From Deltaproteobacteria bacterium (lineage in GTDB: Bacteria > Bdellovibrionota_F > JAHFAK01), in NCBI GenBank assembly GCA_023250585.1, contig JAHFAK010000057.1, forward strand, positions 5,245-13,952: DNA of 8,708 nucleotides, given 5' to 3'. Within the stretch, counting starts at the first letter, position 1, and each line of letters starts with the position of its first letter. The notes beneath the pieces were generated by a model that saw only the letters and a list, made by a program, of their open reading frames with translations, was not told the DNA's origin and made no database searches. This document shows positions 2,695-8,708 of this stretch, in pieces. The position numbers were made by a program, and so were the translations under genes.

Positions 2695-2722
2695 TATGTG
2701 TATCTCTCGGTTATTTCAGTTA

Positions 2723-2839
2723 TTAGGGAAGTATACATATTCTTTTTTTATTTTCTATCGACGTCGCTTCCATAATACTATTAAGAACAGGAAAGCGCGA
2801 TCGATAGAAAATAAAAAAAGAATATGTATACTTCCCTAA
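2723..2839. repeat. Long perfect inverted repeat, candidate MITE-like element or giant hairpin
   Basis: Arms 2723-2761 and 2801-2839 are exact reverse complements over 39 bp, with a 39-nt centre. Inside the centre a weaker stem (CGCTTCC at 2765-2771 against GG-AA-GCG at 2790-2797, one bulged A) extends the hairpin, leaving an 18-nt loop. The arms are AT-rich with a T7/A7 run, so this is not a standard terminator with a short GC stem and a trailing U-tract. Read as an element, GGGAAGTATAC...GTATACTTCCC (2726-2836, 111 bp) is flanked by TA on both sides, as expected for IS630/Tc1-mariner type insertion. However, TTA/TAA are part of the palindrome, so the duplication is not independent proof. 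It sits between two genes whose neighbours are packed tightly; removing the element and one TA would leave a 43-nt gap. No transposase is encoded. Confidence 0.8.
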
Positions 2840-2850
2840 AACCGCGATCA

Positions 2851-3912
2851 TCATTTTATTTTTTCCACGAGGAGTCTTTTAATTTTATTATTTTCTACTA
2901 AATCAACATAAATTTCGCCAAAAATTTCTTCGAGTAGATCTTCCATAGTGATGAGCCCAGCGAGTTTTCCATATTCATCTACCACAATAGCCATATGAAG
3001 TTTTTTTGTTTTTAATTCTCTGAATAAAACATCAGCTTTTTTATTAATGGGAATATAATAGGGTAGACGTATAATTTTTTGGAGTTCAAAAACAAAATCA
3101 ATATCTTTAGTTTGTCTGCGAGTAATAGTTAAAAGATCTTTCGTAAGAAGAACTCCAATAATAACATCCGTATCTTTCTCATAAACAGGAATGCGAGAAT
3201 AATAATTTATACGTACGGCTTCCATGAGCTTTTCTAGTGGCTCATCAATGGCAAGAGAAAATATATTTTCTCTTTTAGTCATAATGTCGGCGACTACTTT
3301 ATCTCCCAATTTAAAAACATTATAAATAAGATCCTGTTCATCTTCTCCAATAATGCCTTCTTTCTTTGATGCTTCAATAAGCATTTTAAATTCGTCTTCC
3401 ATGAGAGAGTTTTTTTCGTTCGGTTGAAAACTTAAGCTTGTAACAACAAAATAGGTGAATTTTGAAATGACTAACCGAATAGGAGTTAAAATTTTATTAA
3501 TAACCGTAATTGTATCGCAGGCAATAATGGCAAAGTTGATATGAAATCGAGCCGCAAGTGTCTTTGGAGTTATTTCTCCAATAATAAGCAATAAGGGTGT
3601 GGTAATGAAAATTGAAATTGCGCTAATCATCCATAATGGCTTTGCATGGAATAGTTTATAAAAAATAGTTGCACTCAGTATAGAAATGAGAATGGTGCTC
3701 AAATCATTGCAGATAAGAATAGTGATAAGCACTTCTCGAGGCTCTTTTAGAAGTTCTTTAATAGCTTTATATTTTGGATGTTTATCTTTTTTTAATTTTT
3801 CTAGATCAAGTTTATTGATCGAAAATAGAGCGGTTTCCGTTGCTGAAAAAAATGCTGAGATAAAAAAAAGCGTTAAAATGAGTATCAGATGAGATAAAAG
3901 CGAAGGGTCCAC
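2851..3912 (-). CDS. CNNM/CorC family membrane protein, short form lacking the CorC domain
   Basis: A 353-residue paralogue of the neighbouring gene. The DUF21/CNNM membrane domain covers about residues 1-165, with hydrophobic segments near 6-24, 61-85, 92-112 and 124-160, FFSATETALFS at 21-31 and GEITPK at 112-117. The CBS pair follows (about 205-262 and 280-335, with VVDEYGKLAGL at 310-320 and ITMEDLLEEIFGEI at 321-334). The protein stops about 20 residues after CBS2, so the C-terminal CorC_HlyC domain is missing, apparently naturally because the end is clean. Likely role is divalent-cation (Mg2+/Co2+) transport or sensing, possibly in complex with the longer paralogue; this is inferred. 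The start is GTG at 3910-3912, directly abutting the TAA of lon. The ribosome-binding site AAGGAAA (3924-3930) lies inside the end of lon, so translation is probably coupled to lon. Confidence 0.87.
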   Translation of the reverse strand: MDPSLLSHLILILTLFFISAFFSATETALFSINKLDLEKLKKDKHPKYKAIKELLKEPREVLITILICNDLSTILISILSATIFYKLFHAKPLWMISAISIFITTPLLLIIGEITPKTLAARFHINFAIIACDTITVINKILTPIRLVISKFTYFVVTSLSFQPNEKNSLMEDEFKMLIEASKKEGIIGEDEQDLIYNVFKLGDKVVADIMTKRENIFSLAIDEPLEKLMEAVRINYYSRIPVYEKDTDVIIGVLLTKDLLTITRRQTKDIDFVFELQKIIRLPYYIPINKKADVLFRELKTKKLHMAIVVDEYGKLAGLITMEDLLEEIFGEIYVDLVENNKIKRLLVEKIK

Positions 3913-6884: not shown

Positions 6885-6910
6885 ATGTCATTGTTTGCTC
6901 GCAATGACAT
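6885..6910. repeat. Inverted repeat (9-8-9) in the hsp20/mnmG divergent gap, candidate operator or REP-like remnant
   Basis: ATGTCATTG (6885-6893) and CAATGACAT (6902-6910) are exact reverse complements around an 8-nt spacer. The site lies in the 127-nt gap between divergent hsp20 and mnmG, 43 nt upstream of the longest possible hsp20 frame and 60 nt upstream of mnmG. The geometry resembles a dimeric repressor operator (as CIRCE does, 9-9-9), though the sequence is not CIRCE. Alternatively, on the minus strand it begins GTCATTGCGAGC, which resembles a dispersed palindromic repeat common in many bacterial genomes. A TATAGT at 6910-6915 could be a -10 box for mnmG without a convincing -35. Confidence 0.45.
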
Positions 6911-6969: not shown

Positions 6970-8708
6970 ATGCAAAATACTTTCGACATTATTGTTATTG
7001 GCGCTGGCCATGCAGGAATTGAAGCTTCTCTTGCTGCTGCTCGTATGGGAATGTCTACGTTAAATATTACGTTAACCATTGATAAAATAGGTGCGATGTC
7101 ATGTAACCCAGCCATTGGAGGATTAGCCAAAAGTCATTTGACCAAAGAGATTGATGCCCTTGGCGGTGAAATGGGAATTGCTACGGATGCCACCGCAATT
7201 CAGTATAAGATTCTCAATCGCAAAAAAGGCCCGGCGGTTCGAGCAACGCGAGCGCAAGTCGATCGTTTTGCGTATAATGACTTTATGAGACGTATATTTC
7301 TGAATGAAAAAAATCTGACCGTTTATCAAGGAGAAGCAAGTTCATTACTCATGAAAAAGGGTTCTGTAGCTGGAGTTACTACAGCCGCAGGAGACACTTT
7401 TCATTCTAAGGCAGTTATTATCACAACGGGCACATTTTTAAATGGGTTAATGCATACTGGAATGGAAGCTGTTTCTGGTGGACGAGTTGATGAACAAGAA
7501 TCAAAATCGCTATCAGATTCAATTCGTGACTTTGGATTTGCAATGGGAAGATTAAAAACGGGCACTGTTCCCCGGCTTCATCGAGATTCAATTGATTATT
7601 CGAAGATGAGTCTTCAGCCTGGCGATGATGATTATCTTCCCTTTTCACATAAGACAAAGACAAGGCTTACGGAGCATGTTCCGTGTTATCTGACGTATAC
7701 GAATAGTACAACTCATAAAATCATTGAAGATAATCTCGATCAATCACCTATGTATACGGGAAAAATTATCGGCATTGGCCCGCGCTACTGCCCTTCTATC
7801 GAAACCAAAATAGATAAATTTCGTGATAAAGAACGACACCAACTTTTTGTTGAACCTGAAGGATTAAATACTCCGTATATGTATATTAATGGTATGAGTA
7901 CATCGTTGCCGAAAGATGCTCAGGAGTATATGGTTCATTCCGTTGAAGGATTGGAAAATGCACAAATACTTATATATGGATATGCAGTTGAATACGATTA
8001 TATTCAACCAACTGAATTGTACGCGACGTTAGAAACAAAAAAAATTGGGAATCTGTATTTTGCCGGACAAATCAATGGAACTTCGGGTTACGAAGAAGCC
8101 GGCGCTCAAGGACTCATTGCTGGAATCAATGCTTGTCTTAAAATTAAGGAAGCAGAGCCATTAATTTTAGGAAGAGATGAAGCATATATGGGAGTTCTCG
8201 TAGATGATCTTGTCACCAAAGGCACGGAAGAGCCATATCGCATGTTTACCTCATGTGCTGAATATCGATTGCTTCTTCGCGAAAATAATGCAGACATTCG
8301 TTTAATGGAAAAAGGATTTAACCTTGGATTAATCAGCGAAGATGCATATCACAATCTTCAAAAGAAAATAGAAACAATCGAGGCACTTCGTCATGATTTA
8401 GAAAAGAAATTTATTAAGGCGCAGGACAAAGCTGTGAGTCTTTATTCATTTTTAAAGAGACCTGAAATTTCTTTTGCTGATCTGAAGCAATACTATCCAA
8501 CTCTTGAAAACATTTCCGATGATACGCTTAAAGAAGTAGAAACAGCAGCAAAATACGATGGGTACATTACCCGTCAAGAAGATGAAGTGAAAAAACTAAA
8601 AAGCCAAGAAAATATAAAAATTCCCGACACATTTTCGTATCAAGATATTCCGGGTCTCACTAAGGAATCACAAGAAAAGCTTGAAAAAATTCGTCCCAAA
8701 ACCCTCGG
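6970..8708 (+). CDS. mnmG: tRNA uridine-5-carboxymethylaminomethyl synthesis enzyme MnmG (GidA), 3' end cut by window
   Basis: 579 codons are present before the right edge, against about 629 residues in E. coli, so roughly 50 C-terminal residues are missing. With MnmE, MnmG installs the carboxymethylaminomethyl or aminomethyl group on U34 of certain tRNAs, using FAD, NADH and methylene-tetrahydrofolate. Visible hallmarks are the FAD-binding VIGAGHAGIEAS (9-20), CNPAIGG (45-51), KGPAVRA (86-92), TGTFLNG (153-159), SGGRVDEQESKSLS (169-182), GIGPRYCPSIE (268-278), NGMSTSLP (307-314), and AGQINGTSGYEEAGAQGL (365-382). Cys45 and Cys274 match the two functional cysteines of the family. Two conserved spots deviate: TGTVPR instead of TGTPPR (197-202), and Cys429 where FTSRAEYR normally has Arg. 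A stop at 6934-6936 and lack of other starts fix the ATG; the ribosome-binding site is weak. The gene is divergent from hsp20. Confidence 0.96.
   Translation, partial: MQNTFDIIVIGAGHAGIEASLAAARMGMSTLNITLTIDKIGAMSCNPAIGGLAKSHLTKEIDALGGEMGIATDATAIQYKILNRKKGPAVRATRAQVDRFAYNDFMRRIFLNEKNLTVYQGEASSLLMKKGSVAGVTTAAGDTFHSKAVIITTGTFLNGLMHTGMEAVSGGRVDEQESKSLSDSIRDFGFAMGRLKTGTVPRLHRDSIDYSKMSLQPGDDDYLPFSHKTKTRLTEHVPCYLTYTNSTTHKIIEDNLDQSPMYTGKIIGIGPRYCPSIETKIDKFRDKERHQLFVEPEGLNTPYMYINGMSTSLPKDAQEYMVHSVEGLENAQILIYGYAVEYDYIQPTELYATLETKKIGNLYFAGQINGTSGYEEAGAQGLIAGINACLKIKEAEPLILGRDEAYMGVLVDDLVTKGTEEPYRMFTSCAEYRLLLRENNADIRLMEKGFNLGLISEDAYHNLQKKIETIEALRHDLEKKFIKAQDKAVSLYSFLKRPEISFADLKQYYPTLENISDDTLKEVETAAKYDGYITRQEDEVKKLKSQENIKIPDTFSYQDIPGLTKESQEKLEKIRPKTL

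Follow-up and report, generated by a model that had tools for sequence, protein, structure and literature searches.

An intergenic palindrome belongs to a dispersed MITE-type repeat family whose arms are probably homogenised by DNA template switching

A long and exact palindrome in a short gap between two related genes raises the questions of what kind of element it is and what keeps its two arms matched. The palindrome lies in a stretch of 8,708 nucleotides (the window), between two minus-strand genes with Pfam CNNM and CBS matches. The start codon of one, a CNNM/CBS/CorC_HlyC-domain gene (1447-2694), is 28 nt from the palindrome, and the stop codon of the other, a CNNM/CBS-domain gene (2851-3912), is 11 nt from it. 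The gap between these two CNNM/CorC genes (2695-2850) measures 156 nt, and the arithmetic of an earlier sequence-only reading, by which removal of the palindromic unit would leave 43 nt, holds. The gap had also been called the only loose one in its surroundings; it is the widest in the minus-strand cluster, but another, of 90 nt, exists at 928-1019. Elsewhere in the window, a short hairpin at 6885-6910 (ATGTCATTGCGAGC...), containing TCGCAATGAC, lies between an Hsp20 gene and an mnmG-like ORF, the latter a long plus-strand frame (6970-8706) that looks MnmG/GidA-like by eye and runs off the window end; GTCATTGCGA-type repeats recur elsewhere in the genome.

The 39-bp perfect inverted repeat described from the letters alone is real. 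On the plus strand, the left arm (2723-2761) and the right arm (2801-2839) are exact reverse complements, with a 39-nt core (2762-2800) between them, such that 2723-2839 forms a perfect hairpin of 117 bases with a 39+39+39 layout. The left arm consists of an outer G/purine-rich part, an ATATTC block and a T-rich inner part ending in TATCGA. The conserved core, CGTCGCTTCCATAATACTATTAAGAACAGGAAAGCGCGA, holds an imperfect inner stem, CGCTTCC/GGAAAGCG, and with this stem counted in, the arms reach 47 nt at 94%. Folding of the hairpin strand gave -44.5 kcal/mol as DNA (z -15.7) and -66.7 as RNA (z -14.7), and no shuffle was as stable in either case. Two simple readings of the palindrome were rejected. 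It is not well explained as a terminator, given that copies often sit between divergent genes and that no T-run follows the stem in the window, nor as a small ORF (ATG TTC TTT...), since changes in arm length break the frame in several copies.

The expectation of further copies was borne out. Searching the same genome (2.24 Mb in 164 contigs) by BLAST with the palindrome gave at least about 41 distinct places, and the core pattern gave 76 copies, with 0 in the control; all 76 were extracted and compared. They occupy intergenic gaps irrespective of how the flanking genes point (19 divergent, 10 convergent and 33 tandem); for two copies that seem to fall inside large ORFs, the likely true gene starts (cysteine desulfurase-like and MazG-like, named by eye) lie downstream. 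Beyond this genome, the core was absent from the one other genome of the same phylum that was searched, and the only match among 59 other genomes was a weak, AT-rich one to the arms, which together point to an isolated lineage. Viral contigs, plasmids and phages were without a match, whether searched by the core pattern or by DNA similarity. Identity to Lon relatives in named genomes does not exceed 50%, and no 16S sequence was found in the draft genome.

The copies fall into two families, which we separated, together with the arm boundaries, by script and by eye, so that counts are good to within a few copies. Family B (about 43 copies) comprises complete miniature elements of about 155 bp with GTAA...TTAC ends and no gene of their own. 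Sequence outside the palindrome is conserved in this family, and the complete element runs from the end GTAAYRGCTCAGTTAATGGGGGAG through arms of 37-40 bp around the conserved core of about 40 nt to the end TAACTGAGGSATTAC on the other side, with 8-bp target duplications outside in many copies (for example AGAAGTTT, TATATCTC, CAGAGCTT and TTTTTACT). The terminal inverted repeats, GTAAYRGCTCAGTTA and TAACTGAGGSATTAC, are imperfect and about 15 bp long. Target duplications in family B numbered 14 exact 8-mers and 9 longer matches, against about 1.2 and 0.6 in shuffles. In family A (about 33 copies, the window copy among them) the flanks are unique, the inner arms T-rich and the outer arms highly diverse and purine-rich, and as a group these copies showed neither target duplications nor ends above chance in comparison with shuffles. 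About 128 occurrences of the end sequence were counted in the genome, against 6 in the control; a viral scan with it returned 29 short matches, none of which had the end context of the element.

The feature is thus a dispersed, non-autonomous, intergenic repeat of the MITE type. The sequence-only reading was right about this kind of element, as attested by the 76 dispersed copies and, in the complete ones, by the short terminal inverted repeats and 8-bp target duplications. The window copy has a core identical to cores in both families and carries CAGTTATTAGGG at 2717-2728 (plus strand), twelve bases that match the inner end of the family B terminus (GTAATCCCTCAGTTATTAGGG) exactly and sit next to the palindrome where that end would be expected. 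This 12-mer is probably a remnant of the element end, and because the window copy keeps it, we read that copy as an older, worn member that would have lost most of its ends. We infer that family A inserted as a MITE does. A possible 8-bp direct repeat, TCATCATT, at 2688-2695 and 2848-2855 (plus strand), is a weak candidate that is not supported as the target duplication of the window copy, since across family A such repeats are no commoner than in shuffles and the spacing is unlike that of family B. The element would need no host function, and whatever influence the hairpin had on the two CorC genes would be incidental.

Between copies the arms differ greatly, whereas inside any one copy 98-99% of positions form Watson-Crick pairs. 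In 57 aligned copies, 97.7% of 2069 cells were paired, against 68.1% when right arms were shuffled between copies and 41-53% when they were slid; two-sided changes occurred in 36 of the 38 pairs, and the covariation score was 0.693 against 0.171. Arms were perfect in 48 of the 68 measured copies, with an internal mismatch rate of 1.4%, while the pairwise difference between copies reached 0.19-0.28 in the arms against about 0.10 in the core. When each copy was compared with its nearest relative, two-sided changes outnumbered one-sided ones by 101 to 22 in family B and by 208 to 14 in family A, and transversions made up 46 of 100 two-sided changes in family B and 121 of 202 in family A. G-U cells were few (about 13 of 2069, or about 0.6%). 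Those mismatches that do occur lean to A-C on the core strand, equivalent to G-U on the other strand (16 versus 5). Length changes are matched as well: one copy (L127) carries one additional G in each arm, and the lengths of T-runs agree between the arms within each copy. The inner stem is normally mismatched (CGACGTCGC versus GCGCGCTCG), but this mismatch has been erased toward the left sequence in L134, L095 and one L103 copy, in which the right side is the complement of the left, and toward the right sequence in L145, in which the left side is the complement of the right.

The core, too, has been rearranged. Relative to the asymmetric ends, it is forward in 22 elements, inverted in 18 and unclear in 3, and two copies (L119 and L073) with identical 37-nt arms carry the same core in opposite orientations. 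Variants of the core, for example CAGGAAAG and CGGGGTAAG, occur in both arm families. That the core varies less than the arms, and that its variants are common to A and B, suggests core exchange between copies or selection on the core. Some elements lack the hairpin altogether. These six or so elements (L162, L166, L175, L184, L187 and L188), about 33-43 bp long, look like family B elements from which the hairpin was deleted, the join lying at short direct repeats (GGCAT, GGTAT or GGGAGTA), and most keep their target duplications.

We think it likely that the arms of this MITE-type family are homogenised by DNA template switching, also called quasipalindrome correction. In this model, the arms would fold into a DNA hairpin at the replication fork, or pair across sister strands, and the polymerase would copy one arm using the other as template. 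A new base in one arm would then be either erased or written into both, and the same template switching could flip the core. Spread of the element itself would be the work of a DDE-type transposase that recognises GTAA ends and makes 8-bp duplications. The signatures of quasipalindrome correction seen here are two-sided, multi-type and length-matched arm changes, conversion of arms in both directions, and inversion of the spacer. In yeast, template switching is described as leaving two signatures, homogenised arms and inverted spacers (PMC8604942), and in RNA genes mutation patterns consistent with it have been invoked to explain compensatory changes of several bases (PMC8794818). Correction seems to happen in place, given that family A, although far more diverged, has no more internal mismatches than family B (1.1% versus 1.7%).

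Several other explanations need to be weighed against arm-to-arm copying. A functional RNA hairpin, transcribed and kept paired by selection as an RNase III site, an mRNA stabiliser or an sRNA, would acquire its covariation through compensatory mutation. The strong covariation of the arms and the conserved core are what such an RNA would show, and the small surplus of mismatches equivalent to G-U on one strand is a weak hint in the same direction. If RNA selection kept the stem, however, G-U pairs and transitions would be expected to dominate, whereas G-U cells are rare and transversions account for 46-60% of two-sided changes. The two arms change in length together, copies lie in all orientations relative to genes, and cores face both ways inside the element, all of which also speaks against an RNA, as does an inner-stem mismatch that is tolerated in most copies and yet erased, in both directions, in four; Rfam gave no match in the window. 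The sequence-only reading had held that a single-copy sequence with covarying arms would instead indicate a regulatory RNA structure; the arms do covary, but they do so in many dispersed copies and without G-U intermediates. We therefore regard an RNA hairpin as quite improbable. Two-sided changes, common transversions, few G-U cells, matched length changes, a mismatch erased both ways and both core orientations fit DNA copying between arms better. It is also unlikely that the palindrome is renewed at transposition, with one half of a single-stranded or hairpin intermediate templating the other such that each new copy starts out perfect. Such renewal would account for the many copies with perfect arms, inverted cores would follow from it too, and the genome has four Y1-transposase matches. 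But the diverged family A, in which target duplications cannot be traced, is not more mismatched than family B, and the 8-bp duplications point to a DDE transposase, while the Y1 loci have no clear element ends. An equally doubtful proposal concerns the core, which could be a selected and independently exchanged cargo, either a protein-binding or a recombination site, with the arms serving only as a renewable DNA stem; a dedicated factor, and not passive template switching, would then flip the core and pass it between copies.

The two remaining explanations concern the nature of the repeat itself. The sequence-only reading had favoured an IS630/mariner-like MITE with TA on both sides as its target site. 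TA does adjoin GGGAAG and CTTCCC in the window, and the genome has one DDE_3 (IS630-type) match. The TA pairs are really part of TTAGGG...CCCTAA, however, and in complete copies they lie inside the element and not at its edge, which removes the mariner/IS630 reading: complete copies reach past TA to GTAA...TTAC ends, their duplications are of 8 bp and not TA, and the outermost bases of the arms lack the conservation expected of transposon ends. Nor does the one DDE_3 transposase locus have matching ends nearby, so that the IS with matching ends envisaged for such an element was not found, and we consider this origin very improbable. That the palindrome is an assembly artefact, either a foldback or arms merged by the assembler, is scarcely credible. 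Although the assembly is a draft in 164 contigs, the 76 copies have unique flanks and those of family B have 8-bp duplications, which excludes foldback as the main cause; in addition, the cores are asymmetric and about 20 copies keep arm mismatches.

A search of the genome for IS66, DDE_3, DDE_Tnp_1 and Y1 transposases gave no locus with convincing matching ends. PF03050, for the IS66 transposase, had 0 matches, and at one of the four Y1 loci (L148) one E2 scored 15 against 9 for shuffled sequence. Searches of the literature for IS66/GTAA MITEs and for the type C palindrome sequence turned up nothing of direct use. The genome contains other repeats of related design. A second type of MITE (L168, L171, L172, L180, L181, L183 and others) shares the GTAA...GCTCAGTTAATGG ends and has 8-bp duplications and a different palindromic interior (of the GTCATCCCGCGGCTTGACCGCGGGATCC type). 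A third type of palindrome (L197-L201; C25, C75, C100, C101 and C163) has a 27-nt core, GCTTCCTCTTATAAAACTTCACTGAGC, without variation among its five copies; the long arms are different each time and, in most copies, perfectly paired.

Covarying stems are usually taken as proof of a functional RNA. In this mobile repeat, the arms of dozens of copies show near-perfect covariation, but with the marks of DNA copying, and so imitate RNA covariation. The family is, on this reading, a record in nature of how a bacterium corrects hairpins, and a warning for RNA discovery based on covariation. The 8-bp duplications and near-identical pairs of copies could also let events be ordered, giving the rates at which arms are copied, cores inverted and hairpins deleted.

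Among known systems, we take family B to resemble IS66-type MITEs in its 8-bp duplication and GTAA terminus, although the IS66 transposase itself was not found in this genome. Like bacterial MITEs in general, including ERIC and Correia elements (PMC10969869), the present elements are short, non-coding, intergenic repeats in tens of copies, with short terminal inverted repeats and target duplications, and among other MITEs, too, there are known truncated copies that lack ends. They differ in being mostly a near-perfect palindrome, with arms that vary between copies but match within them and a core in both orientations. Rickettsia palindromic elements and REP/REPIN repeats are likewise dispersed and palindromic; the former insert inside genes, whereas the present elements are intergenic, and REPs are GTAG/CGTC-tagged hairpins of 20-40 bp (PMC3733652), as opposed to about 115-155 bp here, with 8-bp duplications in complete copies. 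With quasipalindrome correction and template-switch mutation (PMC8604942, PMC8794818, PMC7202029), the family shares arm homogenisation, spacer inversion and multibase two-sided changes. The cases in the template-switch papers that we found, however, lie in coding genes, RNA genes or reporter loci, whereas here the same changes recur across dozens of dispersed copies of one mobile repeat.
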